This document shows, piece by piece, positions 8,128-45,627 of a stretch of 49,527 nucleotides of DNA (the first letter of the stretch is position 1; each line of letters opens with the position of its first letter). Origin of the DNA: a virus; IMG/VR virus record IMGVR_UViG_3300005826_000055, positions 1 through 49,527 of that record; one strand, 5' to 3'. The notes beneath the pieces are model-generated. The model made no database searches, had not been told where the DNA came from, and saw only the letters and a program-made list of their open reading frames with translations. The position numbers were made by a program, and so were the translations under genes.

Positions 8128-8156
8128 TTATTACAGATGTCGCACGACATCCCCTC
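8128..8156 (-). promoter_or_regulatory. Control element copy 1: G-box, palindrome, -10 (leftward)
   Basis: Read leftward: GAGGGG (8156-8151), 17 bp containing the perfect palindrome GATGTCGTGCGACATC (8151-8136), then TAATAA (8133-8128). The geometry equals a promoter with a 17-bp spacer whose spacer is filled by an operator. A start site near 8120 would leave an ideal Shine-Dalgarno leader for the ParB-like gene. The element begins right after the stop codon of the preceding gene (8157). Three further copies share this structure. Confidence 0.8.
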
Positions 8157-8534
8157 TCACGGGGTATTGGCTGACTTAACCGGAAGATCTTTGACGCGCG
8201 GCCACACCTTCTCCGCGAATCCTCTGGACCGTTTCGTCACATCCTTGAGCTCGGCGTCCAGGGCGCTCAGCTCATTGAGGATTCGGTCCATCTTGTCGTT
8301 GGCCTCGCCGAGCTTCTTGAGCAGGAACTTGTGGGTGACCTGCTCTGCATCGCCGTTGTACGTCTCGTAGGCCGAATCCAGAACCTTCTCGGCCTTATGC
8401 AGAACTGACATCAGCAGCCGGTTCGTCGACTGGTCCAGCGTCAGGGGAGGCTCCGGTGGCAACGTCTCCGGCGGAGCTTCGGGCGGGGACTGTGGGTGGC
8501 TCGGACTGCTGTTCTCCGCTGGCTGGCTGCTCAT
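8157..8534 (-). CDS. Hypothetical protein, Pro-rich N-terminus and coiled-coil C-terminus
   Basis: 125 residues. The ATG at 8534 has GAGGAG 7 bases upstream. The first 30 residues are a Pro/Glu/Ser-rich tail; the rest is a long amphipathic helix (LLKKLGEANDKMDRILNELS) consistent with a coiled coil. No family recognised. The N-terminal 45 codons overlap, in another frame, the C-terminal part of the upstream gene, and both stretches are low-complexity and Pro/Glu/Ala-rich. It ends just at control element copy 1. Confidence 0.55.
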   Translation of the reverse strand: MSSQPAENSSPSHPQSPPEAPPETLPPEPPLTLDQSTNRLLMSVLHKAEKVLDSAYETYNGDAEQVTHKFLLKKLGEANDKMDRILNELSALDAELKDVTKRSRGFAEKVWPRVKDLPVKSANTP

Positions 8535-8760
8535 TCGCTTGCTCCTCTACGTCCTTTACGATGAATGACTCGATGATCTTCCGTTTCTGCCCGAACATGG
8601 CAGCTACGTCCTCCAGTGCCTGATTAGCTTTCCCGTAAGCGGGGATCAGCGGGCACTCGCGAGCCAACACCCTCAGTGTCAGCTGGACGCGATCAATGCG
8701 CGCCACATCGTGCCCGTCCAGCGTCGTGGTCTTTCCCTTCTCGGTGGTTACGATTCGCAT
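8395..8760 (-). CDS. Hypothetical protein with disordered C-terminal tail
   Basis: 121 residues. The N-terminal two thirds look folded (TTLDGHDVARIDRVQLTLRV, then a helical segment), and the last 45 residues are a Glu/Ala/Pro-rich disordered tail. That tail overlaps the next gene by 140 bases in a different frame. No domain recognised. It follows the small HTH gene in the leftward early group. Confidence 0.5.
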   Translation of the reverse strand: MRIVTTEKGKTTTLDGHDVARIDRVQLTLRVLARECPLIPAYGKANQALEDVAAMFGQKRKIIESFIVKDVEEQANEQPASGEQQSEPPTVPARSSAGDVATGASPDAGPVDEPAADVSSA

Positions 8761-8766
8761 CTTGCT

Positions 8767-9000
8767 TCACTCCTTGGCCTCCACGGCCTGCTTCTGAAAA
8801 TTCGGATTCCCCGCCGGAATCCGATCCTCCTTGTACATCTCGACACTCTCACGCGATACGAGTGGGAACTCTCCACCCACGTACGCCCGCTCAAGCACTC
8901 CACGAGATGCGTAAACCCGCACACTGCTGATCGAGAGGTTCAATTCCCGAGCAGCCTGCGCATACGTGAGCCAGTCTCTCAGTTCCAGTTTCCGTGCCAT
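8767..9000 (-). CDS. Small excisionase/MerR-like HTH regulator
   Basis: 77 residues. Residues 9-45 (WLTYAQAARELNLSISSVRV followed by YASRGVLE) are a winged helix-turn-helix of the AlpA/excisionase/MerR N-terminal type, which binds DNA to control transcription or excision. It is the first leftward gene from a good promoter at 9037-9064, so it is probably made early. Because it is transcribed from a sigma-70-like promoter while the other leftward groups carry the palindromic element, it is a natural candidate for the factor acting at those elements. That link is inference. Another possible factor is the XRE-type protein at 9781. Confidence 0.65.
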   Translation of the reverse strand: MARKLELRDWLTYAQAARELNLSISSVRVYASRGVLERAYVGGEFPLVSRESVEMYKEDRIPAGNPNFQKQAVEAKE

Positions 9001-9036
9001 GCCTCGTTACCTCCTGTACAAATGGTGGCGAATGGA

Positions 9037-9064
9037 ATTATACTGTCGCATATTATTGACGCAA
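9037..9064 (-). promoter_or_regulatory. Leftward sigma-70-type promoter
   Basis: Leftward TTGCGT (9064-9059), a 16-bp spacer and a perfect TATAAT (9042-9037), placed about 37 bases before the ATG of the HTH gene at 9000. The spacer includes TGCGACA directly before the -10, resembling half of the palindrome in the four control elements, so the same protein might bind here. Confidence 0.6.
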
Positions 9065-9083
9065 CCCAGGCGTGAAACCTGGG
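9065..9083. repeat. Inverted repeat in the divergent promoter region
   Basis: CCCAGG (9065-9070) and CCTGGG (9078-9083) flank 7 bases. It lies between the leftward promoter and the rightward gene at 9114, so it could be an operator or a 5'-leader hairpin for the rightward cassette. Confidence 0.5.
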
Positions 9084-9113
9084 GCAATTACCACCTTTTG
9101 AAGGGAGAATCTC

Positions 9114-9770
9114 ATGCGAAGTCTGTTCTCACTCGCCCTGCTTCTGGCACTCGTCGTGCCGGCTCCGGGGCAGACCGTCATCGTCGATGCGGCCGGCGCG
9201 TCGAGCGGCAAGTATTGGATCGAAGTTTCGGTCGTCGACGGCAAAGTGAATGCCGTGGTCGTCAGCTCCGACCAGGTCGTTGTCCTCCGTGGTGAGGACC
9301 CAGGCGGAGGCGGCCCAGTGGACCCGCCTGTCGACAGTGGTATCGCTGCTGTGTCGCTCAAGGCCAAAGACCTTGTGACCGACCCGAAGAAGAGCGCCAA
9401 CGCGGTGAAGGTGAGCGCTGTCTACTCGACCCTCGCGAAGGAAATCGGTAGCCAGTTCACCTACGAGGGTGGAGACGCGCCGTGGCAGAAACTGGCAAAC
9501 GCCACCAAGGTAGTGCGCGCGACAATCCTCGGTGACTCGTCCGACAACTGGGAGCCGTGGGTCGCAGCCATCGGAAAAGCCCTCTCGGCCATGGAAGACG
9601 CCAACAAGCTGGGCTCCGACGAAGAGATGCAGAAAGCCTACCAAGACATCGCAGATGGACTGGTGGCGGACCTGTCGCAGGAAGAGCTCAATCCAATGTG
9701 GATCGAACTCATTATGCAAATCGTCAAACTCATCCTTGAAATGTGGACCTCCGGAGGTTTCGGGGGATAG
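9114..9770 (+). CDS. Exported protein with signal peptide, unknown
   Basis: 218 residues. A clear signal peptide (short basic start, LALLLALVV core, then a likely cleavage after PAPGQ near residue 20) is followed by a beta-rich stretch, a GGGGPVDPP linker near 65-75, and a helical C-terminal domain with DSSDNWEPWVAAIGKALSAM. GGGAG lies upstream of the ATG. It is the first gene of a rightward cassette that runs to a terminator at 11813. The linker and signal type resemble exported planctomycete proteins; a role in host-surface change or in lysis is possible but not shown. Confidence 0.6.
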   Translation: MRSLFSLALLLALVVPAPGQTVIVDAAGASSGKYWIEVSVVDGKVNAVVVSSDQVVVLRGEDPGGGGPVDPPVDSGIAAVSLKAKDLVTDPKKSANAVKVSAVYSTLAKEIGSQFTYEGGDAPWQKLANATKVVRATILGDSSDNWEPWVAAIGKALSAMEDANKLGSDEEMQKAYQDIADGLVADLSQEELNPMWIELIMQIVKLILEMWTSGGFGG

Positions 9771-9780
9771 GAGACATCCA

Positions 9781-10038
9781 ATGCGAAAGTTATCCAAGGA
9801 TTACGAACGTGCATTGGATGCGCTGGTCGATGAGATCTACGAAGCGGCTCTCTACGATCACGACTGGTCGTGGGGCGACCTGGCGGCACACGCCGGCTTG
9901 TCCTACTCGACCATTGTAAAGTTGGGGGAACGGACAACTCGCCTACCCCAGCTGAGGACGATCTACCATTTGGCGAAAGCCGTTGGCATGGATGTCGCTG
10001 TTATCAAACAACGACTCAAAATGCGAAAGGTTGCCTGA
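9781..10038 (+). CDS. XRE/Cro-type HTH protein
   Basis: 85 residues. Residues about 30-70 (WGDLAAHAGLSYSTIVKLG followed by LPQLRTIYHLAKAVGMDV) form a helix-turn-helix of the Cro/C1 type. Such proteins repress or switch phage promoters. It lies 10 bases after the exported-protein gene and its stop overlaps the next start (TGATG). Together with the divergent HTH gene at 8767 it makes this the most likely regulatory switch region of the window. Confidence 0.7.
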   Translation: MRKLSKDYERALDALVDEIYEAALYDHDWSWGDLAAHAGLSYSTIVKLGERTTRLPQLRTIYHLAKAVGMDVAVIKQRLKMRKVA

Positions 10039-10334
10039 TGGCAAAGAAACGAAGAGCAAGGAAGGTGGGCGGCATCACGAAAATCCAACAAATCGTGGAC
10101 TACATGACCGCCCACCCAGACGTCCCATCTCGTGACATATGCGTGCAGTTTGGGGCCGTCAGTTCCCAGATAAGCCAGGCTCGCAAGAGGATCGCGGCGA
10201 GCCAAGGCGGAAACGGATATTCGCACGACGACCCAATTGGCGAGTTAACGAAGGACGTCCGTATCATCAAGAAAATGGGAATCGTACGAGCGAGGCAGGT
10301 GATCTCGCTCATAGAGTCAATCCAAGGAGGATAA
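10038..10334 (+). CDS. Small HTH-like basic protein
   Basis: 98 residues, starting at the ATG that overlaps the previous stop. The N-terminus is strongly basic (KKRRARKVGG), followed by KIQQIVDYMTAHPDVPSRDI and CVQFGAVSSQISQARKR, a winged HTH pattern in which the second part would be the recognition helix. The C-terminus is helical. It probably binds DNA and may work with the XRE-type protein before it. No family name is certain. Confidence 0.55.
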   Translation: MAKKRRARKVGGITKIQQIVDYMTAHPDVPSRDICVQFGAVSSQISQARKRIAASQGGNGYSHDDPIGELTKDVRIIKKMGIVRARQVISLIESIQGG

Positions 10335-10335
10335 G

Positions 10336-11262: not shown

Positions 11263-11272
11263 GAGAATTTCA

Positions 11273-11734: not shown

Positions 11735-11771
11735 CCATCTCTTCTCCGCAACCGTGGCACGGAGGTCAGAA

Positions 11772-12326: not shown

Positions 12327-15143
12327 TTACGCAATATCCGTCCAAGTCAAACTGTGGTCCGTCGCCAGCTTCCCGCCTATCTCGTTTAGCTCGTCCGTGG
12401 TGAGTGCACCATCGTTGATCGCCAACTGACGGTATGTCCCCTTGGCGTACTCCGAACTTCCGCCGCCAATCACCCCCACGCTGACGCCGGTCATCGTCTC
12501 GGCGCCGGCACTTTCCACCTCGCCCGTCCCTCCATCCTGATAGACTGCGGACGACGCACCGTTGAAAACACCAAGGATCGTATGCAGCGTGCCATAGTCC
12601 GCCCCGATGGTCGTGGAAGCCGCCGTGCCGCCATCGATCCGCAGCAAGTCGCCAGTCGAGTTGACCTGCAAGGCTTGCTCGCTGGTCGCCGCAATGCCGT
12701 CCACAAGAACCTGGTCGGCCGAGTTGTCCGTGATGTTCATGGTCAAGAAGATCGTGTTCGGCTGACTCAGGGCACCAGCAAAAGCGGCAGATACCAGAGA
12801 GTCATCCACACCGTCATACTTCAGTCCGTAACCCGTGCTATCCGCTACCCGGACCACCTCCGGACGACTGTACAGCGATGTTTGAGTAAGGTCATTTCCG
12901 TTGGACGTCTGGTCGGACACCAAAGCAACCAGGCCGCTTACCGTGTGCCCCGCAGGAATCCCTGGCTCGTTCGATGGCGACCCGGTCTCTGTGAAGTCCA
13001 AGGAACCGACCTGATCCTCTCCCGCGCCGGTCACATTGTTTGCCGACAGATTCCACCAGCCAACACATGACTTCGCGTTGAGTTGATCGCTGCCGTCAAG
13101 AACCGTGGACAACGCACCGATTCCCGCCACGTACAGATCGTCCACATCGGCTTGTGCAAGCTGCGACGACCAGATCGACACCTCATCCAGCCTCCCTTGC
13201 AGTAAACCAGCCGCTTGATGCGACGATGCCAAGTTTTGCGTTCCTCGACTGCCGACGTCCGCAAACCACTGACCGTCGTCGTTCCCGGACACTGCCACCG
13301 ACGATCCATCTACCCAGGCCAAGTAAGCAGTGCCGCTAGACACAATCACAAGATGGTGCCAATCACCGTCCCGTAAATCCGTCGATCCGAACGTTGTTGC
13401 AGTTGCCGCACCACCACCTATGACACGATTGACCTCGGGGACGCCGTCCGTCAGGATCACCGAAAACTCGTTGTTCGCCGACGCGGTCTCTCCGGAATCA
13501 AACAGGTAGATCAACGCCCTGTCTGTCTGAGATGTTCGGAACCATAAAGATATCGATCCACTGGAGTCTGACGATCGATAGTTTGCCGACACATTGGTGA
13601 GGTAGTCAGACGACCCATCAAACTCAAGACAACGATCCTCGACTCCCGCCGTGGCGTTGACCGTCCCTGCTACCCTATCCGGACCTTGGGTCAAATAACC
13701 GTCTTCACTTGTGACTGTGTTGACATCTGTCAATGTGTAGCTGCCGTATGTATCGACCCGGTTTTGTCCGCTTGCCTCGTTTAGCTTCCAGAGATGGTCA
13801 GGAACGCCGGGATTATCAGGATGGGGATCGTTCGCCATTTCATAGGGCGAACGACCCTTGCCGTAGTTGTATAGCCAGAGATGATTGGCCTTCGTCAATG
13901 CGATCGGCCAAATCATCGCAAACTGTGCTCGACCCGTGTAATACTGCGAGTCATTCCAAGCACCGATACGGAACTCTGCCGCAGATCCTGGGCTCGCTTC
14001 TGTTGTGTCGAGGTTGCCTTCGGCACCATCGCAATAAGCTTTTGTACTGGTCGAACTAGCGAAGACGCCCGTGCCCATATGCCAGTTATCGTCCTGATAA
14101 TTGCCAGGAACAGCAGACGCCGTTGTCGTTACTGCCGCCTCCCGCTTCTTCGCCCCAAACGTGTCGTCCGCCAACAGATAGGTAATGTAGTAATCGGCAC
14201 CCGTTGCAATCTCATTGCTCATTAGGTTCGCCAAGACACCCGTATTCGATGAACGAAACCAGCAGACCATTGACAGGGGCATACCCGTTTGCGGACTCGA
14301 TGCCGTGTTCCGAAGTTGCTCCGAATTAGACCCAGTGAAAATGGCACAATCTCGCCCCGTGCCGGGAGTCAAATGCATCCCGTTCCCACTGACGTCGATC
14401 GCTACGTAATCCTTGTGATCCATTCCCCAGGCGGCCTTGATGTTGGCCGGATCAGGGCAGTTCGTCGCGCCCGCCGCGAACTGAACCACCAACTGATCGT
14501 ACGTTGGCTTGTTCGTCTGCATGTACGCCACTTCGGCATCCGACAGAGCCACGTTGAAGATCATCGCGTTCTGGATCGTGCCGTCAAAATACTCGGCCGG
14601 TGAAGACCTGGCTGTCCGACCGATGGAGGTCCGGTTGTACGTCGCCGTGATGCCAATAGACGTGGTTTTCTCGACCGCCGCCGCGTCATCCAAGTAAACC
14701 TTGCGGGATGTGGCCGACGTGAAGACGGCACACCCGAAACGCCAAGTGGAGCCCGTGGCCCCCCCCACACTCAATGCGTTATCCCCGGTGTTTCGATAGG
14801 ACTGCGCGGCCAGTTTCCCTGAAGTCACGATGAGTTGCTGGTAATCAAGCAGGGCATCCTTATCGCCCACCCAGATTAACGACCCAAGCGTGTCCGCTGT
14901 ATTAAACCAGCACAGCATGGTCATCGGGTAGGCAGAGACGGCCGCCGCTTCACGCTCCAGATAGTTCGAGCCGTCAAAGTCGTGGGCCTCGGACGAGAAC
15001 ATCGAAGACAGTGTCGTGAACGTGAAGCGAGCCGCCAGATTTGGATAATCGTCCCAACTGAATGGTGCGGCGGCTTCGACCGATTCTTCAACCTCAAGGA
15101 CAGGCGTAACACCCGTCGCCAATCCTAATTCCAAACCGTCCAT
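12327..15143 (-). CDS. Tail fibre or adhesin with four LamG/ConA-like domains
   Basis: About 938 residues. Four copies of a concanavalin/LamG-type sandwich are visible, at roughly residues 55-215, 255-430, 490-680 and 790-930. Each has a start such as CLEFDGSSDYL or CAIFTGSNSEQL, a central SISLWFRT-like or TMLCWFNT-like strand, a DGDWHHLVIV-like or STWRFGCAVF-like strand and a GRLDEVSIW-like or GTIQNAMIF-like end. These folds bind carbohydrates, so host-surface glycan recognition is likely. GGAGG precedes the ATG at 15143. The size, the position after the tail-tip genes and the repeated lectin fold support a receptor-binding fibre. The first two domains are closest to each other, suggesting internal duplication. 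Confidence 0.75.
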   Translation of the reverse strand: MDGLELGLATGVTPVLEVEESVEAAAPFSWDDYPNLAARFTFTTLSSMFSSEAHDFDGSNYLEREAAAVSAYPMTMLCWFNTADTLGSLIWVGDKDALLDYQQLIVTSGKLAAQSYRNTGDNALSVGGATGSTWRFGCAVFTSATSRKVYLDDAAAVEKTTSIGITATYNRTSIGRTARSSPAEYFDGTIQNAMIFNVALSDAEVAYMQTNKPTYDQLVVQFAAGATNCPDPANIKAAWGMDHKDYVAIDVSGNGMHLTPGTGRDCAIFTGSNSEQLRNTASSPQTGMPLSMVCWFRSSNTGVLANLMSNEIATGADYYITYLLADDTFGAKKREAAVTTTASAVPGNYQDDNWHMGTGVFASSTSTKAYCDGAEGNLDTTEASPGSAAEFRIGAWNDSQYYTGRAQFAMIWPIALTKANHLWLYNYGKGRSPYEMANDPHPDNPGVPDHLWKLNEASGQNRVDTYGSYTLTDVNTVTSEDGYLTQGPDRVAGTVNATAGVEDRCLEFDGSSDYLTNVSANYRSSDSSGSISLWFRTSQTDRALIYLFDSGETASANNEFSVILTDGVPEVNRVIGGGAATATTFGSTDLRDGDWHHLVIVSSGTAYLAWVDGSSVAVSGNDDGQWFADVGSRGTQNLASSHQAAGLLQGRLDEVSIWSSQLAQADVDDLYVAGIGALSTVLDGSDQLNAKSCVGWWNLSANNVTGAGEDQVGSLDFTETGSPSNEPGIPAGHTVSGLVALVSDQTSNGNDLTQTSLYSRPEVVRVADSTGYGLKYDGVDDSLVSAAFAGALSQPNTIFLTMNITDNSADQVLVDGIAATSEQALQVNSTGDLLRIDGGTAASTTIGADYGTLHTILGVFNGASSAVYQDGGTGEVESAGAETMTGVSVGVIGGGSSEYAKGTYRQLAINDGALTTDELNEIGGKLATDHSLTWTDIA

Positions 15144-18142: not shown

Positions 18143-20086
18143 CTACGGATCCTCTTGTTCTCTGGCCAACCGACGTGCCCACGTCCGCTCCGACGCCACG
18201 GTAACCTTGTCTCGCAACTTGCGGACGGCTGCACTCTGTCGCAGGATGGCGAGGTTCGCCTGACCGTAGCCCGGCACGTCCTGATCGAAGTCGACCATGG
18301 TGCGAATCGGCGCCGTGCTATCGGTCACGTCGATCTGGAATGACACCTGACGGAGAGCCCCGTCGAGTTGGATCTGCGGATAGAAGCCCGCGTACTCGAT
18401 TCGGACCGGACGGTCGCCCGAGAACGTGCTGGCAATCACATCGAAATGCTCATCGGTGAGTTTCTTGACCGCCGGGTCGTTCGTGTCGACCCTGACGTCC
18501 TGGAACCGTGTTCCCAAGAAGACGGCCTCGCGGACCGGCGTGATGTCGGGCCGTCGAATGATGAGCGGCTCCGTGTTAAGGTGCGGCTGCGGGAGGCTCC
18601 GGAAGTATTGCTCCACCTTCCATGTCCCGAAGTAGTCCCGCCAGTTGAAGGCAGCGCGTAATCGCAGCTCTGCCGGCGCGTACCAATTGTCGGCATCCAA
18701 CTGAGCAATGCCCGCCTGATTCGTAAACTTGACGATCCCCTTCCGAGTGTCGAGATAGTAGTCGTAGTTGGCTATCATCTTCTCGGTCTTCTCGACGGCC
18801 CCGTTTCGCCCCTTTTGGGTGATTGGCAACGGCACAACTCCCGAGATGTTGTTGTCCGTCCCAATGGAGAACTTTCCATAGACCACCGGCGGCTTGGTGA
18901 CTACGAATTTGTCCTCCACCGTGGTAGCTGCCATCGCATTGTGGATTGGCGTAATCTCCTTGACGTTCTCGATGTCGTACCATTGAATGTTGCCGTCTTC
19001 GTCCTTGAACTGCGATGGGAACCGGAACGGGGTCTTGATGCGGTACCACTTGAACACCGAGCCGGTCGCGAGTTTTCGTTGCTCTTCGTCCAATTCGGCG
19101 GCATTGGAGATGCCGGTGGCCTGGCCCCAGATGCCATTAGGTCCACCGAAACCACCGTCAGATCGATTCTTGTCTGGTGCGTAGGAGAGCTCGTTAAGAG
19201 CCTTGACGGCTCCGTCCGTATCCAGCCCGCACGCCTCCAACTCAAAGTCCCACTGGAACATCGTCGGGGCGGTGATGATCATCAGGCGATCCGGTCGCTC
19301 GTTGTTGTCGACAGATTCGGAGTAGCTGATGACTGGCATAACATCGGGCAGTGGCGGATTATCTCCACCGCCGTAGAGCCTCGCGAGTCTCTGCGCGCGA
19401 CGGTCGGCAGCCCGGTCTTGAGGATTTTCCCATTCCTTCTTCTGTGCGGTATCCCCGATGGATTGCCCGAGCCGCCAGATCTTCACCCGGTTGTCCCAGT
19501 CCATGACGACCCGGCAACCGAACTGCTGGCAGAGTTGATCCAGTTCCTGGGCTGGATTGTCCCACATCCACTGGACCTCTGGACCTTCGCCTTCAGGCAG
19601 CGCGTCAACCTGTTCATTGAAACTGTTCCCAGACAGCTCTCTCATGTCGATGAGGAGCCGCTGGGCCATCCGGCGGATTGTCATGCTCCTGGACCACTCG
19701 CGGCGACGAACTCTCAGCTCCTCGCCTGGCGCGATAAGCTGGCCTCCGAAGTTGGTCCTGTTGAAGTGGCCGGTCGCGTAGCCGTACCGCCACTTCCACC
19801 GCTTATCGAACAAGATCAGAGTGCTCACGAGATTGTCGCGGTTGAGAACCATGCTGGTGGCGTCGATGACGCATTCCTTCATTTCCAGCACGGCACCGTC
19901 GTACTCGACCCGTAGAGTGCCCTGTCTGCCGCCGTACGCCACGTTTGCGGGGTCGAACGGCACGACGTCGAGTCTTATGCCATTCGGAGCTACGCCGTGC
20001 GAACGGGCCACCACGGCCCGTATGACGGCAATCGGAGCCAAGCCAGTCCGGTCGCGGATGAACTGCACCTTGGGAGGATTGGGCAT
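18143..20086 (-). CDS. Tail hub / baseplate-like protein
   Basis: 647 residues. The order (after tape measure and distal tail-like genes, before fibre genes) and the content suggest the tail-tip hub. The N-terminal region has GIRLDVVPFDPANVAYGG and LILFDKRWKWRYG, like phage hub proteins; ELDQLCQQFGCRVVMDWDNR near residue 180 recalls the D-domain pattern of gp27-like hubs. The C-terminus is a charged helix ending RRLAREQEDP. GAGGGG lies upstream of the ATG, and the gene is the first behind control element copy 2. Confidence 0.6.
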   Translation of the reverse strand: MPNPPKVQFIRDRTGLAPIAVIRAVVARSHGVAPNGIRLDVVPFDPANVAYGGRQGTLRVEYDGAVLEMKECVIDATSMVLNRDNLVSTLILFDKRWKWRYGYATGHFNRTNFGGQLIAPGEELRVRRREWSRSMTIRRMAQRLLIDMRELSGNSFNEQVDALPEGEGPEVQWMWDNPAQELDQLCQQFGCRVVMDWDNRVKIWRLGQSIGDTAQKKEWENPQDRAADRRAQRLARLYGGGDNPPLPDVMPVISYSESVDNNERPDRLMIITAPTMFQWDFELEACGLDTDGAVKALNELSYAPDKNRSDGGFGGPNGIWGQATGISNAAELDEEQRKLATGSVFKWYRIKTPFRFPSQFKDEDGNIQWYDIENVKEITPIHNAMAATTVEDKFVVTKPPVVYGKFSIGTDNNISGVVPLPITQKGRNGAVEKTEKMIANYDYYLDTRKGIVKFTNQAGIAQLDADNWYAPAELRLRAAFNWRDYFGTWKVEQYFRSLPQPHLNTEPLIIRRPDITPVREAVFLGTRFQDVRVDTNDPAVKKLTDEHFDVIASTFSGDRPVRIEYAGFYPQIQLDGALRQVSFQIDVTDSTAPIRTMVDFDQDVPGYGQANLAILRQSAAVRKLRDKVTVASERTWARRLAREQEDP

Positions 20087-20105: not shown

Positions 20106-20134
20106 AAATTACAGATGTCGCACGACACCCCCTC
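20106..20134 (-). promoter_or_regulatory. Control element copy 2: G-box, palindrome, -10 (leftward)
   Basis: Leftward GAGGGG (20134-20129), 17-bp spacer with GGTGTCGTGCGACATC (one base off the perfect palindrome), then TAATTT (20111-20106). The ATG of the tail-hub gene follows 20 bases later. The element starts two bases after the stop of the upstream gene (20137). The -10 is the weakest of the four copies. Confidence 0.75.
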
Positions 20135-30771: not shown

Positions 30772-31170
30772 TTAGCCAATGACCTTTTCGGCCTCGCCAG
30801 TTTTCACCATGTTCTCAACGTCCTCAAACTGCTCCTGTTGGATCGCGTCGAGAGTCCTCTCGCCCTCGCTACGCGGAGTCAAGCATTCGACCGCGTCCTG
30901 GGCAGCAGGATGATCTCGCGGTATCTCAACCGCCGTGACCCGGTAGCGATAGGTCTTACCGGTCAGTGCATGCCAGCAGAAGAACTGCCTCGCCGCTTCC
31001 AGTGCGTCGTGACAATGCACGACCAGGTCCTTGTGTGGACGTGGTCCCGCTATCTGCCGAACCCCCCAATACCGTTTGGGTAGGGGCGCCTTGCGAGACT
31101 TTCCCTGTCGTTCAGCAAACAGCTCATTCAACGATGGGTGCTTCGACCCAATTTCTCTCTTGGCGGGCAT
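30772..31170 (-). CDS. Hypothetical protein, first gene of the tail unit
   Basis: 132 residues. AAGGAGG lies 7 bases before the ATG. Basic N-terminus with KSRKAPLPKRYWGVRQIAG, a middle part with HCHDALEAARQFFCWHALTG, and an acidic helical end. The ALTGKTYRYRV segment could be a small beta barrel. No family recognised. It is preceded by an untranslated leader of about 100 bases from control element copy 3. Confidence 0.5.
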   Translation of the reverse strand: MPAKREIGSKHPSLNELFAERQGKSRKAPLPKRYWGVRQIAGPRPHKDLVVHCHDALEAARQFFCWHALTGKTYRYRVTAVEIPRDHPAAQDAVECLTPRSEGERTLDAIQQEQFEDVENMVKTGEAEKVIG

Positions 31171-31280: not shown

Positions 31281-31309
31281 TTATTACAGATGTCGCACGA
31301 CATCCCCGC
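31281..31309 (-). promoter_or_regulatory. Control element copy 3: G-box, palindrome, -10 (leftward)
   Basis: Leftward GCGGGG (31309-31304), a 17-bp spacer carrying the perfect palindrome GATGTCGTGCGACATC (31304-31289), then TAATAA (31286-31281). It lies in the 213-base gap between the major capsid gene and 31170, downstream of a hairpin, so it should start the tail unit. Confidence 0.8.
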
Positions 31310-31329: not shown

Positions 31330-31363
31330 GGCGACGGGAGCGCAGCCACGGACTCCCGCCGCC
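31330..31363 (-). terminator. Hairpin after the major capsid gene
   Basis: GGCGACGGGAG (31330-31340) and CTCCCGCCGCC (31353-31363) pair with one mismatch around 12 bases. It follows the capsid stop codon by about 20 bases. No T-run follows, so it may be a weak terminator, or protect the capsid mRNA 3' end. Confidence 0.5.
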
Positions 31364-34476: not shown

Positions 34477-34532
34477 AGCGCAACAAAAAAAGCCATGCGG
34501 GAATGCGGCCCCGCATGGCTCTCAGTTGCGCT
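34477..34532 (-). terminator. Nested-stem terminator between the decoration and protease genes
   Basis: AGCCATGCGGG (34491-34501) and CCCGCATGGCT (34510-34520) form a perfect 11-bp stem; leftward it is followed by seven T. An outer pair AGCGCAAC (34477-34484) and GTTGCGCT (34525-34532) encloses the whole hairpin and T-run. The inner stem fits a Rho-independent terminator; the outer stem could compete with it, which would reduce stopping in the middle of the late operon. Confidence 0.8.
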
Positions 34533-38023: not shown

Positions 38024-39070
38024 TCAGATGAAGGCGCCGTGTTTGATCGGCTTAGCGATCTCGTGCAAGACGACGTTCGGCATGTGGCCGCGACACATCA
38101 CCCTGCACTTGTCGTCAACCTTTGCGATTGGGCGGTCGGCCCACACTTCGGAGAACGGCTTTTTACTCAAGTCGCCAAGGCAGTGGCCGTCGAACCCTCG
38201 CTTGTTGCAGCACGTCCAGAGACACCCGTTGGGAGAGATCACCGCCTGAAGTCCAGACCACAAGCACCGGTCGTAACCATGGCCCTTCCAATCGGCGAGC
38301 TGCTGGAACCGCTTACGGTCAAACTCCACCGGGATGCCGACGTCTGGCAATACGATCTCCGACATGTGCTTGAGCCACTTACGGGAGGAGGTCGGCTGAT
38401 TTGGGGTACTCGGGTCGAAGTGAATAGCGGGCCGGAACTGGACGTAGCTCCCGCCAAGGCTTTCCGCCAGTACGGCCATGTCCAACATCCGCGTCCAGTT
38501 CTTTTCGTGGAGGAGGAAACCCACTCCGACCACCGAAACCTTGGCCTTGGCCATCAGCCGAACCGCATTGGTCGCGGCCTCGAAGCGATCTACCCGCTTC
38601 TCCTTTTTGTAGGTCTTCGCGTCGGCACAGTCTAGCGAGACGTAGACCCAATCCGCCGTGTTTGACAGAAGACCAGCGAGGTGTGCGTCCATGTGGACCC
38701 CGCTCGTGTACAGGCCCTGCGCGAGCCCAGTCACGGACGTCAATTGAATGATCGAGCGAAATTGCGGGTGAAGTGTCGGCTCGCCTCCGCCGGTCCAGGT
38801 GACTGATCTGACACGGCTGCTCGCCAGGTCGTGGATGATCCGGCGCGCAAGGGAATAGTCCATCAGGTCGCCAAGATTGTCCTCCTTGTCCGCGATCGCC
38901 AACGGCCCCTTGGTGTGGGTGTAGGCGAAATGGCAGTCCTGGCACCCGAGACTACACCGGTTCGACAGGTCAATCTCGACGTTGACCGGGGCATTGGTTC
39001 GACCGGCCAGCACTCCAGCGACCCGGTCAAGTTGGAACAAGAGCTTCCGTTCGTAGTTCGTGTACTGCAT
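38024..39070 (-). CDS. Radical SAM enzyme with SPASM-like C-terminus
   Basis: 348 residues from the ATG at 39070, one base after the upstream stop. The radical-SAM cluster motif is NRCSLGCQDC at 37-46 (CxxxCxxC), and the SAM-binding GGGEP box is at 93-98 (TWTGGGEPTL). Further Cys in the last 100 residues (GYDRCLWSGL, CLWTCCNKRG, CRVMCRG) fit an auxiliary iron-sulfur cluster as in SPASM enzymes. Such enzymes modify peptides or sugars, or mature other enzymes. It is the last gene of the five-gene cassette that separates the terminase from the portal. Confidence 0.8.
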   Translation of the reverse strand: MQYTNYERKLLFQLDRVAGVLAGRTNAPVNVEIDLSNRCSLGCQDCHFAYTHTKGPLAIADKEDNLGDLMDYSLARRIIHDLASSRVRSVTWTGGGEPTLHPQFRSIIQLTSVTGLAQGLYTSGVHMDAHLAGLLSNTADWVYVSLDCADAKTYKKEKRVDRFEAATNAVRLMAKAKVSVVGVGFLLHEKNWTRMLDMAVLAESLGGSYVQFRPAIHFDPSTPNQPTSSRKWLKHMSEIVLPDVGIPVEFDRKRFQQLADWKGHGYDRCLWSGLQAVISPNGCLWTCCNKRGFDGHCLGDLSKKPFSEVWADRPIAKVDDKCRVMCRGHMPNVVLHEIAKPIKHGAFI

Positions 39071-39071
39071 C

Positions 39072-40403
39072 CTATGCCCACAATGATTGGAAGACCTGCT
39101 GGATCCGCTCCGCCGGGTAGTCTGGATAGTCAACCACCGCGTGCATGCCATCGTACTTCATGAGATTGGTGGTCGTGAGCCAGCCCTTGGTCGCGGCGTC
39201 CCGATAGAACGGGGTGCCAGGCTGCGGGGTCGAGATACTGCACTGCCATCGGGGCATCAGGCCCTGAGTCTCCCACGCCCTAATCTGAGCGACGGTGGAC
39301 GCGTCCTCCTCCTCGGACGAGCCCTGGGCGCCCACCTGGAACGTCCCATAAGCACAAATACCGTTGTCCCTGCACAAATGCAGGAACTGTAACAGGCGGT
39401 CGGCATTCACATTCTTCTTGATCGCACGGCCAGACCTCTCGGAAAGGTTTTCCACCCCCACCCGTAACTGCTGGTAGCCGGCATCCGAGGCCAGCCTGAC
39501 AGTGTCCTCGTCGAAATTCCAATAGCCGCACATCGCGTCGTACACGTACCGGTCCAGATTCCGCTTGATCAGCTCCTGACAGAACTTGACGAACCACTCC
39601 TTGTCCGCGTTATGCGTCTCTTCGTTGAAAAAGCACCCGTAGAACCGATCCTCGTACTTGGTGGCCAGATAGTTGATCTCCGCACAGACGTAGGCTGGGT
39701 TCCTGGTCCGGTGGCTCCGCGAGGTGTTCCCGTGGCCACCGTAGTAGAGTGGGACCGCACAGAACGTGCAACTGAGAGGGCATCCGCGAGTCGGGAACAC
39801 CTGAATCATGCCCGGCATGTTCCCGAGCGGGTTCGACCGCTCCCAATAGTTGATCCGGCTGATGTCCTCATCCTCAGGCCATGGCAACGTGTCGATGTTG
39901 ACGAGTTTACCCGGAACGGTGGCCGAATCATGGCTCCCCACGATGTGATTCAGAACCTGGTATTCGTACTCGCCGGGGAACACATGGTCCCAGCCGTCCT
40001 TCAGGGCCTGTTCCGGATTGTACGTGGCGAACGGCCCGGTCAGGATGATCTTACAGCCGGTCTGGAACTTGACCTCCATGCAGCAGTTCGTCATCGCCTT
40101 ATACGACAACGCGCTACATTCGGTAATGACCACGTCTGGCTGCTCCGCGACCAGGTTGAACGCATACTGCATGGAATCCCACCCGAACCCGACATCGTCC
40201 GGCCTGGGGAGATTGCCGTCCACCATCTTCACGTCATGTTCAGGGCACGAGACCTTGAGCAGGCTCGACAGGTAAGCCAGCTCGTACGGGTAGTAGGCGA
40301 AGTCTTTCCGACCAGGGATCGCAGCGTCCCACCGTGACGGAAATAAGACCAGGCTCTCGCCCGTGGACAGACGGCCGACCGAATTGGCAACGAGAATCTT
40401 CAC
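39072..40403 (-). CDS. B12-binding-type radical SAM enzyme
   Basis: 443 residues from the GTG at 40403, which overlaps the upstream stop (GTGA) and has GGGGAG upstream. The first 170 residues look like a cobalamin-binding-type Rossmann domain (FAYYPYELAYLSSLL, then IILTGPFATYNPEQALKDGW), though the classical DxHxxG base is not visible. The radical-SAM motif is TRGCPLSCTFC with Cys at about 208, 212 and 215. The rest fits the (alpha/beta) barrel (CGYWNFDEDTVRLASDAGYQ). Members of this family do methyl transfer or carbon-skeleton chemistry on lipids, sugars or peptides; the substrate is unknown. Confidence 0.8.
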   Translation of the reverse strand: MKILVANSVGRLSTGESLVLFPSRWDAAIPGRKDFAYYPYELAYLSSLLKVSCPEHDVKMVDGNLPRPDDVGFGWDSMQYAFNLVAEQPDVVITECSALSYKAMTNCCMEVKFQTGCKIILTGPFATYNPEQALKDGWDHVFPGEYEYQVLNHIVGSHDSATVPGKLVNIDTLPWPEDEDISRINYWERSNPLGNMPGMIQVFPTRGCPLSCTFCAVPLYYGGHGNTSRSHRTRNPAYVCAEINYLATKYEDRFYGCFFNEETHNADKEWFVKFCQELIKRNLDRYVYDAMCGYWNFDEDTVRLASDAGYQQLRVGVENLSERSGRAIKKNVNADRLLQFLHLCRDNGICAYGTFQVGAQGSSEEEDASTVAQIRAWETQGLMPRWQCSISTPQPGTPFYRDAATKGWLTTTNLMKYDGMHAVVDYPDYPAERIQQVFQSLWA

Positions 40404-40942
40404 TCTGGGGCTCCCCTGCTGACCTGCATGGCGAAGTAGCTCAACCGGTCGAACCACTCGAACCGGAGCCCTCGCTCGAACTGCTTGTTGATGAAGTGAT
40501 AGTCGCCCTCATACGAATCAGGCCAGTCGTCCGCGTTCGCCACCCAATACTTCCGGCGAACCACGAAACAACTCAAGTCGATGTGGCACTCCATCGGTCG
40601 ATTCTGCCAACAATGGACGGTCGGGTAGATGATGTTGTTGATCTTTCCTCGCCAGATAACGACGTCCGGCCAATCCCGGCATTCCACGAAGTCACACAAA
40701 TCCATGGCGACGTCGCGGTCGAGGAGGCAATTGTCGTCACTAAGGACCACAACGTAATCTCCGTGGACCTTGTGGGCGTGGTTTTGGATGTCGCGATACA
40801 TCCCCCCCACACCCAGACCGACTGTGTCCTCCACAATCACGTGCTGACAGGGGAGCTCTTGGGTCGCGACAGATGCCTTGCACCGCTCCAGTAGTGTCGG
40901 TCGCTTGTACGTCGGGGTGTACACCGAAAGGAATTCAGTCAT
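40400..40942 (-). CDS. Family 2-type glycosyltransferase
   Basis: 180 residues, short for a GT-A enzyme. The N-terminus SVYTPTYKRPTLLERCKAS is the standard beginning of family 2 transferases, and VVVLSDDNCLLDRD at 64-77 has the DDN variant of the DxD metal site. The C-terminal part has FVVRRKYWVANADDW and GDYHFINKQFERG, like the acceptor side. It overlaps the neighbouring genes on both sides by 4 bases, so it is part of one translated unit. Confidence 0.75.
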   Translation of the reverse strand: MTEFLSVYTPTYKRPTLLERCKASVATQELPCQHVIVEDTVGLGVGGMYRDIQNHAHKVHGDYVVVLSDDNCLLDRDVAMDLCDFVECRDWPDVVIWRGKINNIIYPTVHCWQNRPMECHIDLSCFVVRRKYWVANADDWPDSYEGDYHFINKQFERGLRFEWFDRLSYFAMQVSRGAPE

Positions 40943-41628
40943 GTTTCAATCGCTGCCTCCGACCGCCTGGATAAATGGGCTGACAACTGCTTTGCGTGGT
41001 TGCTGTCCCTGGCCCACAACTCACTCGCGAAGATGCTGCCGGGGATGAACCGCCACGGTATCTCATACCTGTCCAGTAAGTGGGTCATACTGATCTGGTC
41101 GTTCGAGCAGAACAGCAACTGATGGAGCAGCCACTCGGCCTCCATCGGGCGAAACCTTGGGTGCCGCCGGCGGATGATTAGGTTGCCGCAGGAAACGCGT
41201 TTCTCCACATTCAGCCCGAGCAATCGGTAATACTCCTCTTGCCCAGGCAGCGTCTCCTTGCCGTGGTACAAGGACGTGCAAGCCTTCATTTCCTGCCGGA
41301 TGGTCCGCTTGTCGTCGTGCTGGAAGAAGGCCGCCAAGCAGTCTTCTAACTGCGACAGGCACCACTGCACGAACTCACTCGACCGAATCTTGACCAGCCC
41401 GCATGTCCAGATCGTCACGTCGTAATCGGGGAACAACGTTGACGCCAGGGCCTTGGGGATCCTCGATGTTTCGAGATTGGAGAACTGCTTCATCTTCGGC
41501 AGTTTTCTCCGCTTCCACCCATCGGCCTCGGCACCGTAGATGAAGAAATCCGCGTCGACCGTCTGTGTCGGCGCCGGCACAATGTCATCCACCTGGCCGT
41601 AGTTGGCCGTGAACACCGCAACGCGCAT
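40939..41628 (-). CDS. DUF616-like glycosyltransferase
   Basis: 229 residues. Resembles the DUF616/TOD1-type transferases: VAVFTANYGQVDDIVPAP at the start, FFIYGAEADGW, the middle SRIPKALASTLFPDYDVTIW in which the usual WxDG is WTCG here, and FQHDDKRTIRQEMKACTSLY near residue 100. The replaced acid in the metal motif is odd. It is one base before the epimerase gene's stop and overlaps the next gene by 4 bases. Sugar addition to an unknown acceptor is likely. Confidence 0.65.
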   Translation of the reverse strand: MRVAVFTANYGQVDDIVPAPTQTVDADFFIYGAEADGWKRRKLPKMKQFSNLETSRIPKALASTLFPDYDVTIWTCGLVKIRSSEFVQWCLSQLEDCLAAFFQHDDKRTIRQEMKACTSLYHGKETLPGQEEYYRLLGLNVEKRVSCGNLIIRRRHPRFRPMEAEWLLHQLLFCSNDQISMTHLLDRYEIPWRFIPGSIFASELWARDSNHAKQLSAHLSRRSEAAIET

Positions 41629-41629
41629 G

Positions 41630-42631
41630 TCAGAGCTCCAGCCAGCGTGGATTGTCCAAGGTCCACCTGATGGTCTTCTCCAGGGCGTCGTCCACGGTCA
41701 CGGGCGGAGTCCACCCGTAGTTGTGCAGCTTTGCCCCGTCCAACGCATAGCGGAGGTCATGGCCTGGCCGGCTGGAATGGAAGTCCACCATCTCGTATTT
41801 GAGATCCTTTCCCAGTACCTCCGCGATCTTGCGGGCCAGCGTCAGGTTATCCCACTCCTCAGGGCCGACGATGTTCCACTTGCCGCAGCTCGCGTCCTCG
41901 TTATCCAGTGGCATCGGCAGGTTTTCGATGATGTGCATCACCGCACTGGCAACGTTTCGCGCGTGGATGTAGAACCGCGAACCTGGGACCGTCTTGTCCT
42001 CGTTCGCGTGGATAGTGATCGTCTCCTCAGCCAGAATCTTCCGGATACACATCGGAATGAACTTTTCCGGGTGCTGTCGCTCGCCGAACACGTTCATCGT
42101 GTTGGTGATCGCGATCGGCATCTGGTATGTGTTGCTGTACGCATAGCAGAAGCACTCGGCAGCCGCCTTGCTCGCGGAGTACGGATTGCCAGGCAGGAAC
42201 CGTTCACCCTCCTTGTAGGCTTTCTTACCGGGGGCAGGGCCGTAGACCTCGTCCGTGCCGAAGTAGATCACCCGCGAATTCACCGTCCGGGCGAAGTTGA
42301 GCAGGTTCACCGTGCCCATCACATTGGCCTCGGCGAACCGGTTCGGGTACATGATCGACCGGTCGACGTGACTCTCCGCCGCCATGTGGATGATGACGTC
42401 GGGGCGCCCCAGCTCGGACGCCAGACCGTCACAGATGGGCCGTACCAGGTCATGCGAATGGCACTCGACATTGCTCACCTGGTAGACCTGGACGTCTCGG
42501 AGACGGTCCCATCCGCCCGAGGCGAAGGATAACGCATCAAGGACCGTGATCTTCCAGTCCGAGTTCTTCAACAGGTGCTCCACCATGTGGTGGCCAACAA
42601 ACCCAGCACCGCCCGTTACCAATACATGCAT
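41630..42631 (-). CDS. NAD-dependent epimerase/dehydratase, dTDP-glucose 4,6-dehydratase-like
   Basis: 333 residues, full length for the family. TGGAGFVG at 6-13 is the GxxGxxG NAD site; AAESHVDRSI at 84-93, FGTDEVYG at 124-131 and YSASK at 151-155 give the Thr-Asp-Glu and Tyr-Lys catalytic motifs of the RmlB-type sugar dehydratases. It converts a nucleotide hexose into a 4-keto-6-deoxy or epimerised form. It is the first gene of the five-gene cassette, following the terminase, and should supply the sugar donor to the two glycosyltransferases. Confidence 0.85.
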   Translation of the reverse strand: MHVLVTGGAGFVGHHMVEHLLKNSDWKITVLDALSFASGGWDRLRDVQVYQVSNVECHSHDLVRPICDGLASELGRPDVIIHMAAESHVDRSIMYPNRFAEANVMGTVNLLNFARTVNSRVIYFGTDEVYGPAPGKKAYKEGERFLPGNPYSASKAAAECFCYAYSNTYQMPIAITNTMNVFGERQHPEKFIPMCIRKILAEETITIHANEDKTVPGSRFYIHARNVASAVMHIIENLPMPLDNEDASCGKWNIVGPEEWDNLTLARKIAEVLGKDLKYEMVDFHSSRPGHDLRYALDGAKLHNYGWTPPVTVDDALEKTIRWTLDNPRWLEL

Positions 42632-42640
42632 GGCTGACTC

Positions 42641-44050
42641 CTAGATTCCTGCTAGTTCAATTCCAACCTCGGCCGATCCGTCCAACCCGTACTGCCTCAA
42701 GTGCGTGGCCAACTCCAGACCCATGGCCAGCGAATCCGGACCGTCATCGTACTTGTGGCCAGGGAATCCCTTCAACTGCTCCAACAGGAGAGCCACCCCA
42801 GGCGATTTCCTCTTGAAGTGGAGCGATCCGGTGGACAGGAAGGGCGTGATCGCCGCACGAATCTTCATCTTCTTCTCGCGTGTGGACTGAATGGTGTGAA
42901 TGTGGGGCCAGTAGTCCAGCTCGCGGCACCGCCGGCGGAACATGCCGACCAAGACCTTCGCGAATGCGTTGCCCTCGATGCCGACCGCGACAACCGCATG
43001 CTTGGCCGCGACAGCTAGCAGTAAGTCCACCTGCTTCCATGCGTCCATGCGATCCAGCCAGGCGTCCACCCAGACGTGGCCGGCCGGGTCGACCGTGAGC
43101 AGCGTCACGGCCGCGTAGTCGCTCTTGCTCGACTCACCCACAGATGGGTCTAGGAATGCGATGGAGAAGTTTTGACCGCCTTGAGGCATCTCCTCGAACA
43201 TGATGCGGTCGTGGAAGTATTCCGCGTCCCACTCGCTATCCAAGACCAACGGTGGGCGTTGCTGATAGAGGGCGTCCCACATCCAGTGATAGCCACTCTC
43301 CTCGTATCGGCGTTTGATGCGGGTCAGCTTGTCGAGCGGCCAGCGTTCAGGCCACAATGCCTCGCCACCATCGCTGATGGCCGGCATCATGATCCGTTCC
43401 CAATGCTCACCGCTCCGCTCCGCCTCCTTGAGCACGAAGCCAATCAGATCATCGACATGCCACCGCGTGGCAAGGATGACGACGGAAGCCCCCGGCTCGG
43501 CCCGAGTAATGCACGAGGTCAAATACCATTCTTGCAACTTCGACCGCTGGACCTCGCTCAAAGCCGCTTCTACGTCCTTGAAGAAGTCGTCCACGATCAA
43601 TAGGTGGCCACCAGCACCCATCGTTGCCCCGCCACCAACACCAGCAGCGTAGACTTCACCCTCGTGTGGACCGGTACCGGCGAGCTTCCATCGCTCCCAT
43701 GAATGCGTCTGCTCGTCGATCTTTGAACCAGCCTGAATACACAGACTACGCACTGCGACCGAACTGCGCTGAGCCAGACGTGATGTAGCGCCCCAGAGCA
43801 TGATATTCCGGGTCGGAAAGAGCGAACGATACCACGCCGGGTAGTACATTGATGTGAGGGTACTTTTCCCGTGCCGTGGCGGCATCTCGACGATCACCCG
43901 ATAGTCGGGCGTGGTTGCAGCTCTCACAAGTGCATCGTCTAAGATCGACAGATGATTCGCCATCCTCCATTTGCCTTGGCTGTTCTCGTGAGCCCAAATC
44001 CCTGGACTCGCGAACTCCCCGAACGCTGGCAACTTGATAGCAGGCACCAC
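42641..44050 (-). CDS. Terminase large subunit
   Basis: 469 residues from a GTG at 44050 with GGAGG 6 bases upstream. The ATPase Walker A region is MPPRHGKST (56-64), the Walker B is HLLIVDDFFKD, and the coupling motif SVVILATRWHVDD follows. The nuclease domain has FLDPSVGESSKSD, VVAVGIEGNAFAKV and KYDDGPDSLA, giving the acidic residues for two metals. It cuts concatemers and drives DNA into the head through the portal. No small terminase subunit is obvious; the small genes just upstream are candidates. Confidence 0.9.
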   Translation of the reverse strand: MVPAIKLPAFGEFASPGIWAHENSQGKWRMANHLSILDDALVRAATTPDYRVIVEMPPRHGKSTLTSMYYPAWYRSLFPTRNIMLWGATSRLAQRSSVAVRSLCIQAGSKIDEQTHSWERWKLAGTGPHEGEVYAAGVGGGATMGAGGHLLIVDDFFKDVEAALSEVQRSKLQEWYLTSCITRAEPGASVVILATRWHVDDLIGFVLKEAERSGEHWERIMMPAISDGGEALWPERWPLDKLTRIKRRYEESGYHWMWDALYQQRPPLVLDSEWDAEYFHDRIMFEEMPQGGQNFSIAFLDPSVGESSKSDYAAVTLLTVDPAGHVWVDAWLDRMDAWKQVDLLLAVAAKHAVVAVGIEGNAFAKVLVGMFRRRCRELDYWPHIHTIQSTREKKMKIRAAITPFLSTGSLHFKRKSPGVALLLEQLKGFPGHKYDDGPDSLAMGLELATHLRQYGLDGSAEVGIELAGI

Positions 44051-44126
44051 ACATGTCCTCCGTGAACAACCCTATCCGTCCGCATTTCCTGCATGGTAGC
44101 AGCTCTAATGGTCGCGTGTCTCGCAT
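43746..44126 (-). CDS. Zinc-ribbon ORF overlapping the terminase start
   Basis: The ATG at 44126 comes right after the preceding stop (TGAGATG) and GGAAGAG lies upstream. The first 32 residues contain CRKCGRIGLFTEDMCGACY, a CxxC...CxxC zinc ribbon. The reading frame then stays open for 300 bases inside the terminase gene in another frame, with several more Cys. Either it is a short zinc protein whose 3' part overlaps the terminase, or the terminase is reached from it by frameshift. It could also be a chance open frame. Confidence 0.35.
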   Translation of the reverse strand: MRDTRPLELLPCRKCGRIGLFTEDMCGACYQVASVRGVRESRDLGSREQPRQMEDGESSVDLRRCTCESCNHARLSGDRRDAATAREKYPHINVLPGVVSFALSDPEYHALGRYITSGSAQFGRSA

Positions 44127-44127
44127 C

Positions 44128-44379
44128 TCACTCTTCCTTGGGCGTGTCGACCTGAGGGTCGACTTGGATCTGAATCGGTAGCTTGCCACCCTGTCCGGCA
44201 AGCATGTCTTGGATGAAATGCTCCACTCCGCCCGGAGGGATCACGAGGTTAATCGCGAAACCGTCCTGGATGTCTTCGATCAAGTCACCCGCCAGCAGCG
44301 TCAACTGCTGGACCCCCGTCATCGTCTGATTCGCCTGACCCTGCAATTGATTCAAACGACCCCGCAATCTCCTGAACAT
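44128..44379 (-). CDS. Small phage protein, unknown
   Basis: 83 residues with GGAGG 8-9 bases before the ATG. Helical start (RRLRGRLNQLQGQANQTM), then LAGDLIEDIQDGFAINLVIP and PGGVEHFIQDML, and an acidic end. It overlaps the previous gene by 95 bases in a different frame. Could be a terminase small subunit or an accessory packaging protein; no motif to decide. Confidence 0.5.
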   Translation of the reverse strand: MFRRLRGRLNQLQGQANQTMTGVQQLTLLAGDLIEDIQDGFAINLVIPPGGVEHFIQDMLAGQGGKLPIQIQVDPQVDTPKEE

Positions 44380-44569
44380 TGAACGGTTCCTCCATGCATG
44401 CCTTGTGAACTGCCTTGAACGTCAACATGAGAGTCTTGGACGCGGCGCGAAGCAACGGGTCCTTGCTCTCCTTCATCGCCTCCACCCCACCCTCGAAACA
44501 GATCTTGTAGGCCACCAACTCGCGGCAAATCGAACACATCTGATCGCCGGTCATGTGCGGGCACTTCAT
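44285..44569 (-). CDS. Small zinc-binding protein
   Basis: 94 residues. HMTGDQMCSICREL has a CxxC knuckle, with more Cys later (YKICFEGG, KACMEEP). The centre is a helix (DPLLRAASKTLMLTFKAVHK). The tail is Gly/Ser/Asp-rich and overlaps the next gene. No family recognised; gene order suggests the packaging region. Confidence 0.5.
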   Translation of the reverse strand: MKCPHMTGDQMCSICRELVAYKICFEGGVEAMKESKDPLLRAASKTLMLTFKAVHKACMEEPFNVQEIAGSFESIAGSGESDDDGGPAVDAAGG

Positions 44570-44579
44570 CGTCGCAGCC

Positions 44580-44795
44580 TCAATTCAATTCGTGGAGCCT
44601 GTTATTGGTGTCGGGTGCTGGCGCCGACACGGACGCTACGTCATGGTCGCGGATGTACGTGTGCTCCAGTCGCGCCAATCGCGACTCCACCAGCCAGCAC
44701 CGCGTCTCAAGCCGGTAGACCGCATGGTGGTGCCACAGGAGGCAGAACGCAAACAACATCCCGACACCAAGGATCAAGAGTTCAGTAGACGCCAC
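44580..44795 (-). CDS. Small membrane-anchored protein
   Basis: 71 residues from a GTG at 44795 with AAAGGGG upstream. ELLILGVGMLFAFCLLW near the N-terminus is a single membrane span, followed by a basic helix (RLETRCWLVESRLARLEHTY). Small proteins of this sort in late-operon leaders can be holins, spanins or host takeover factors. No lysin is next to it, so the role is open. Confidence 0.5.
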   Translation of the reverse strand: MASTELLILGVGMLFAFCLLWHHHAVYRLETRCWLVESRLARLEHTYIRDHDVASVSAPAPDTNNRLHELN

Positions 44796-44841
44796 CTTAA
44801 TACCCCTTTCGTTATTTCCATCTCACTCATCATTCACCTCG

Positions 44842-45039
44842 TTATCCTCCTGGATGCAGCCTGGCCCGGACTGCCGCATCCTTTGCTTCGAGAAGTTTAC
44901 GAAGTGATACCGTCCGCTCGGGGCCTGGCTCGCATGAATTGCAGACGCTCGTTGCGAGTTCGCAAAACGGCAGTGACACCGCTTGTAAATGCTCTGGTAA
45001 ATGTGCACACTCAAACCATTTCAACATTCGATCGTCCAT
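44842..45039 (-). CDS. Small helical hairpin protein, resembles Acb2/Tad1-hairpin family
   Basis: 65 residues: LKWFECAHLPEHLQAVSLPF, ELATSVCN, then GPERTVSLRKLLEAKDAAVR. Widespread phage proteins with this F-x-[YH]-LP...ELA...P.ER..AL.KLLEAK pattern form two helices; I believe the family is related to the Acb2/Tad1 hairpin domain (DUF7681), known for phage sponges that sequester cyclic nucleotides made by defence systems. The order of motifs fits; the specific binding residues were not checked. The ATG at 45039 lies one base after the upstream stop. Confidence 0.65.
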   Translation of the reverse strand: MDDRMLKWFECAHLPEHLQAVSLPFCELATSVCNSCEPGPERTVSLRKLLEAKDAAVRARLHPGG

Positions 45040-45040
45040 G

Positions 45041-45214
45041 TCATTCCTCCACTACTTTGGCGTACTCAACCAAGTCCGGCCATTCACCGGACCACTCTTG
45101 CTTCAAAAACCAAACCAGATAATGATCTGGCACGTTGCCCAGCCGCTCACCCTTGTACTTGCCGAACGGCATAATGTCGTCATCGGTCAAGGCGTGGGGG
45201 TTCCGCTCACTCAT
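45041..45214 (-). CDS. DUF3820-like small protein
   Basis: 57 residues, too short for a long-ORF scan but with a typical motif, DDIMPFGKYKGERLGNVPDH, followed by LVWFLKQEW. The MPFGKYKG...VP..YL.W pattern marks the DUF3820 family, found in phages and bacteria with unknown activity, sometimes fused to exonucleases. ATG overlaps the upstream stop (TGATG). Confidence 0.65.
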   Translation of the reverse strand: MSERNPHALTDDDIMPFGKYKGERLGNVPDHYLVWFLKQEWSGEWPDLVEYAKVVEE

Positions 45215-45381
45215 CACTCACCTCGCTGTTGGTCAAGAATTACCTCATCGATTGATGGCACGCCGTCGTAATCCTCCGAAGCCCGTAGGACCACCCTCGT
45301 CACATCGTTCCATTGCTGGTCCGTCGCTTTGCCGGACTCCAACAGTTCTCGCACAGCTCGCCGGTACTGATATGCGTCCAT
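45214..45381 (-). CDS. Small hypothetical protein
   Basis: 55 residues: MDAYQYRRAVRELLESGKAT, then WNDVTRVVLRASEDYDGVPS, a short acidic helical protein. Its stop overlaps the following start, which supports translation. Function unknown. Confidence 0.5.
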   Translation of the reverse strand: MDAYQYRRAVRELLESGKATDQQWNDVTRVVLRASEDYDGVPSIDEVILDQQRGE

Positions 45382-45420
45382 CACGCGACTCCCTTCGGCG
45401 GCCGGCGAAACGATTCGATG

Positions 45421-45570
45421 TCACAGAGAATAGCCCTCATCGTCCCCCTCCGGCCCCGGAAACACGTCCCCAATCATCATCCACTCCTCGTCCTGACACT
45501 CCATACAGATCGGGGCGACCAGGTCGTCGCACTCTTCTCCCATCTCCCGATCACACACTATGCATCTCAT
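45421..45570 (-). CDS. Small zinc-knuckle protein, first gene after control element copy 4
   Basis: 49 residues with two Cys pairs, CIVC (3-6) and CMEC (22-25), forming a likely zinc ribbon, then an acidic end (VFPGPEGDDEGYS). Only about 28 bases separate its ATG from the -10 of copy 4 and there is no clear Shine-Dalgarno, so it could be near-leaderless. Function unknown. Confidence 0.5.
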   Translation of the reverse strand: MRCIVCDREMGEECDDLVAPICMECQDEEWMMIGDVFPGPEGDDEGYSL

Positions 45571-45598
45571 GGCCGCTTATTGTAGCCGCTATTTGCAA

Positions 45599-45627
45599 TT
45601 ATTAAAGATGTCGCACGACACCCCCCC
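45599..45627 (-). promoter_or_regulatory. Control element copy 4: G-box, palindrome, -10 (leftward)
   Basis: Leftward GGGGGG (45627-45622), a 17-bp spacer with GGTGTCGTGCGACATC (one base off the perfect palindrome), then TAATAA (45604-45599). It heads the head-and-packaging group (45570-31384), so it is the probable main late promoter or a control site for it. Confidence 0.8.

Follow-up and report, generated by a model that had tools for sequence, protein, structure and literature searches.

The recurrence of one short sequence at distant places of a viral genome, always on the same strand and between genes, raises the question of whether these sites form one regulatory system and how they would be read.

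The element and its four copies

The window analysed here is the whole virus record of 49,527 bases, about 10% of which is non-coding according to the gene calls of this analysis. GNGGGGRTGTCGTGCGACATCTKTAATWWWTG occurs four times in the window, always on the leftward strand and always inside a non-coding gap. The complete element comprises 33 bases and stands at the starts of four gene groups, most likely as a shared promoter with a binding site for one phage protein. A sequence-only reading of this DNA had reported four such sites in gaps, all pointing the same way and each with a G-box, 17 bp and TAATAA (TAATTT in copy 2), and these observations were all confirmed:

8128-8156, minus strand: copy 1, GAGGGG-17-TAATAA; 16-bp inverted repeat at 8136-8151; gap of 52 bp ahead of the ParB-like gene
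20106-20134, minus strand: copy 2, GAGGGG-17-TAATTT; inverted repeat at 20114-20129; 50-bp gap
31281-31309, minus strand: copy 3, GCGGGG-17-TAATAA; inverted repeat at 31289-31304; gap of 213 bp that separates the capsid gene from the following one
45599-45627, minus strand: copy 4, GGGGGG-17-TAATAA; inverted repeat at 45607-45622; ahead of the head/packaging group

A leftward start codon follows 23, 19, 110 and 28 bases beyond the ends of copies 1, 2, 3 and 4, respectively, the last of them at 45570. The consensus of the four copies is GNGGGG-R-TGTCGTGCGACATC-T-K-TAAT-WWW-TG. TGTCGTGCGACATC matches the window exactly four times, on the leftward strand only, and the reversed pattern used as control gave no match. 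With a weight matrix derived from the four copies, these score 59-63 bits and the best non-site in the window 8.2 bits; none of 60 dinucleotide shuffles gave any 14-mer at three copies. The window element gave no match when viral and genome collections were scanned for its pattern, and 117 matches to the 14-mer elsewhere, all without the boxes, were dismissed as chance.

The 16-base core of the window copies, GATGTCGTGCGACATC, is an imperfect inverted repeat of the form 7+2+7 with two unpaired central bases (TG). The 16-bp palindrome of copies 1 and 3 had been described as perfect, but it has seven of eight positions paired, and copies 2 and 4 (GGTGTCG...) have six of eight. The proposed exact spacer of 17 bp holds if TAATAA is taken as the -10 hexamer; however, AATAAT, which is shifted by one base and has TG ahead of it in copies 1 and 3, is closer to an extended -10. 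Copy 2 has a poor -10 whichever hexamer is chosen. All four copies carry the G-box at the -35 position, where a sigma-70 consensus promoter would have a TTGACA-like hexamer, and a sigma-70 scan did not report copies 1, 3 and 4, which lay in the scanned regions (copy 2 lay just outside them).

Other repeats are found towards the right end of the window. An inverted repeat, CCCCAGGGTAC-N17-GTACCCTGGGG, is located at 46648-46686 in the gap before the rightward genes, with a related copy at 46198-46236 and a sigma-70-like promoter nearby at 46689-46716. At 49333-49527, an array of CGTTC-type repeats with a period of ten bases is followed at the contig end by four CGAACGGA units in tandem.

The same site in a relative

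Comparisons of DNA (first 25 kb), portal and capsid revealed no close relative among named phage records, and terminase relatives reached only near 30%. The only close relative that we found is L131 (same contig as L130), a sequence of 11,482 bases with a 93% identical capsid and 47-92% identity in other proteins, in which one orthologous site, the gap of copy 3, could be compared. In an equal-length alignment with copy 3, the left frame with the G-box is identical at 11 of 12 positions and the right frame with the TGTAATAA box at 15 of 18, but the 16-base core at only one of 16. The distance from AGCGGG to TGTAATAA is 22 bp in both sequences; anchoring on the shared GGGATG instead needs an indel of one base and still leaves a different core in L131. 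The sequence-only reading had expected the core to be conserved in related genomes, which taken literally fails, although the frame around the core is kept. A mobile repeat was rejected as an explanation, since L131 keeps the site in place though its core differs.

The L131 core contains TGAAACGTTGCA, another imperfect palindrome with 5/6 positions paired. Random sequence reaches this value in about 5% of cases, and the palindromic nature of the L131 core is suggestive only. The change of the core within a kept frame suits an operator of altered specificity.

The comparison also bears on whether the element acts as RNA, for example as a hairpin by which the leftward transcripts are processed or antiterminated. 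GAUGUCGUGCGACAUC of the window core does fold, with -6.1 kcal/mol and a z score of -2.7, whereas the L131 core at the orthologous site has no RNA fold (z -0.5). How a structured RNA is maintained between the two phages can be seen right beside this site:

31330-31363, minus strand: RNA hairpin with a 12-bp stem, immediately downstream of the capsid gene and ahead of copy 3; no U-run

Its stem is kept in L131 through two compensatory base-pair changes. Since it lacks a U-run, this hairpin is not a standard intrinsic terminator; it is probably a transcript end or a stability element. A function of the four-copy element as RNA is thus highly improbable, and a DNA site is favoured because only the window core folds. 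With the boxes kept, the core replaced and the RNA fold lost in L131, the element resembles a promoter frame, formed by the boxes, around a core that would serve as a DNA operator with a different specificity in each of the sibling phages.

More distant sequences added little. A generic pattern of the frame matched only L131 and two contigs with 36% GC, which share no protein with the window and were set aside as chance matches. In 14 contigs with 37-44% identical capsid proteins the element is absent, and no multi-copy palindrome family of such kind was seen there. One distant relative, L137, carries paired palindromes, GGCACACGCCGTGTGCC, at 12964-13020 and 15088-15133.

Genes behind the element and candidate regulators

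The genes that follow the four copies, and those that might encode a protein reading them, are:

5037-7277, minus strand: superfamily II DNA helicase, second gene after copy 1
7277-8104, minus strand: ParB-like protein with HTH, 275 aa (PHROG 1033, E 6e-9), first gene after copy 1; candidate binder
8767-9000, minus strand: 77-aa HTH_17/excisionase/MerR-like protein; candidate regulator
9781-10038, plus strand: 85-aa Cro/C1-type HTH protein, weak matches; candidate regulator
18143-20086, minus strand: 647-aa protein, first gene after copy 2; no informative match
30772-31170, minus strand: 132-aa protein, first gene after copy 3; 81% identical in L131
31384-32616, minus strand: major capsid-like protein, last gene of the copy 4 group
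42641-44050, minus strand: terminase large subunit (PHROG 38, E 7e-76), copy 4 group
45421-45570, minus strand: ORF of about 49 aa with CxxC...CxxC, first ORF after copy 4

The late genes sit in the leftward groups. Of the functional groups proposed earlier, those of copies 1, 3 and 4 are supported: ParB-like protein and helicase follow copy 1, connector and minor tail genes follow copy 3 (with the capsid gene before it), and the group of copy 4 comprises small ORFs, terminase, epimerase, radical-SAM genes, portal, protease and capsid; the "tail hub" assigned to copy 2 found no profile support. The stretch between portal and terminase (38024-42631) contains a nucleotide-sugar epimerase, genes with a weak likeness to glycosyltransferases and two radical-SAM genes, of which one matches a B12-binding domain weakly, and a strong intrinsic-terminator-like hairpin is located within the head gene group at 34488-34523 on the minus strand. 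The host may be a member of the Planctomycetota, a guess based on similar proteins.

The G-box, present in all copies and in L131, might together with TAATAA be read by a phage-specific sigma factor or RNA polymerase. This is very unlikely: sigma region 2 was not found in the window, the HTH protein at 8767 is a 77-aa excisionase/MerR-like domain, and the swapped palindrome would be left unexplained. A search for a single-subunit RNA polymerase was uninformative, as its controls were silent.

The ParB-like protein might bind the repeats and combine gene control with DNA organisation, copy 1 then serving autoregulation, since its gene is the first one after this copy. parS sites are typically 16-bp inverted repeats, which is the length found here. 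The parallel would be KorB at the operators of plasmid RK2, a ParB-family repressor (PMC11790492). However, the Pfam ParB_N profile did not match the ParB-like protein, a ParA partner was not found in the window, and a G-box and a -10 in fixed orientation at each copy would be superfluous for a pure centromere site. We therefore regard this reading as improbable. The quality of AlphaFold models for the ParB-like and HTH proteins was too low for use.

Activation or repression

On balance, we moderately favour the four elements as promoters of one phage regulon, at which a dimeric phage protein would activate late and replication genes in the manner of P1. The 16-bp inverted repeat, located between the -35 and -10 positions and centred some 22-23 bp before the expected start, would be bound by this protein, which would recruit the RNA polymerase of the host to an TGTAATAAT-like extended -10 with a G-box where a usable -35 would otherwise stand. 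The replication (ParB-like/helicase), tail and head/packaging groups would thereby be switched on together, as by Lpa at the P1 late promoters. Identical cores within the window are what a single trans-acting protein reading every site would require; taken with the different core in the sibling, they suggest one reader protein whose specificity differs between the two phages. The element agrees with the P1 late promoters in the position of the repeat, in lacking a -35 and in serving late genes, and we therefore favour an activator. Several observations count against it: the palindrome across the spacer suits a repressor as well, searches found no Lpa or Ogr homologue, the -10 of copy 2 is poor, and copy 1 precedes replication-type genes. 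Such genes are often not late.

A repressor is the most probable rival. The inverted repeat would then be its operator, and a Cro/C1-like protein bound between the -35 and -10 positions would shut all four promoters, comparable to P1 C1 at its dispersed operators. An inverted repeat of 16 bp across the spacer is a common position for a repressor, a Cro/C1-type HTH protein is encoded at 9781-10038 (with weak matches), and the specificity of the core differs between the siblings much as the operator consensus does among heteroimmune Cluster A phages (PMC6550527). If this were true, the L131 core would mark a different immunity type. On the other hand, integrase and resolvase were not found in the window, which is possibly an incomplete record, so that no resident repressor is indicated; a bare promoter without a -35 hexamer would be weak; and well-studied phages control their late genes positively (PMC10695390). 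We consider repression a possible but rather unlikely explanation.

The earlier proposal of one regulon with promoter/operator elements bound by a dimer thus fits best and is strengthened by the single relative, whereas its special sigma factor and the novelty claimed for the layout are not upheld. It is also conceivable, though we would put it forward only tentatively, that the G-box and extended -10 form a fixed frame with an exchangeable palindromic cassette, and that siblings exchange this cassette at every site along with the regulator and so avoid cross-talk.

Comparison with known systems

In the KorB/KorA regulon of RK2, a ParB-family protein and its partner exert global control through palindromic sites; this is however a plasmid system, and ParA was not found in the window. 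The operators of P1 C1 and the operators and stoperators of Cluster A mycobacteriophages resemble the element in that numerous sites, scattered and mostly oriented, serve one phage protein, with a specificity that differs among relatives. Those sites are asymmetric and the stoperators lie mostly off promoters (PMC6550527, PMC9283540), whereas the window has an inverted repeat fixed in a promoter frame.

At the late promoters of P2-type phages, one phage activator (Ogr/Delta) serves several late promoters through a dyad with TGT...ACA ends. This dyad is located near -55, unlike the repeat in the window, and no Ogr_Delta domain, as in the Ogr/Delta zinc-finger activators, was found in the window.

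The best match is provided by the late promoters of P1, which depend on Lpa (gp10) and host SspA and which we compared base by base. No phage system with such a layout had been thought to be described, yet P1 has it at 11 places under one activator: the 11 late promoters annotated in AF234172 have an inverted repeat (the "-22 region") bound by Lpa just upstream of the -10 and no annotated -35, and they are dispersed ahead of the head, tail, lysis and packaging groups. In P1, this is mostly the 9-bp inverted repeat AAGTNACTT, then four bases and a TA...T -10 box, whereas the window repeat has 16 bp, ends 2 bp before TAATAA and is preceded by a G-box. AAGTNACTT itself is absent, its place being taken by the window core and, in L131, by the core with TGAAACGTTGCA. 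Furthermore, all window copies point one way, and tblastn and phmmer searches of the window with Lpa gave no match. If the activator reading is correct, the P1-type plan, with one activator and a repeat in the promoter spacer, would extend to an unrelated phage in which no Lpa homologue was found. The layout thus has a precedent in the P1 late promoters, and the relative found here differs in the binding sequence within the same frame. This would be a clean case in which the operator specificity changes and the promoter frame stays, and the co-evolution of regulator and site can be tested once more copies in the L131 genome are known.
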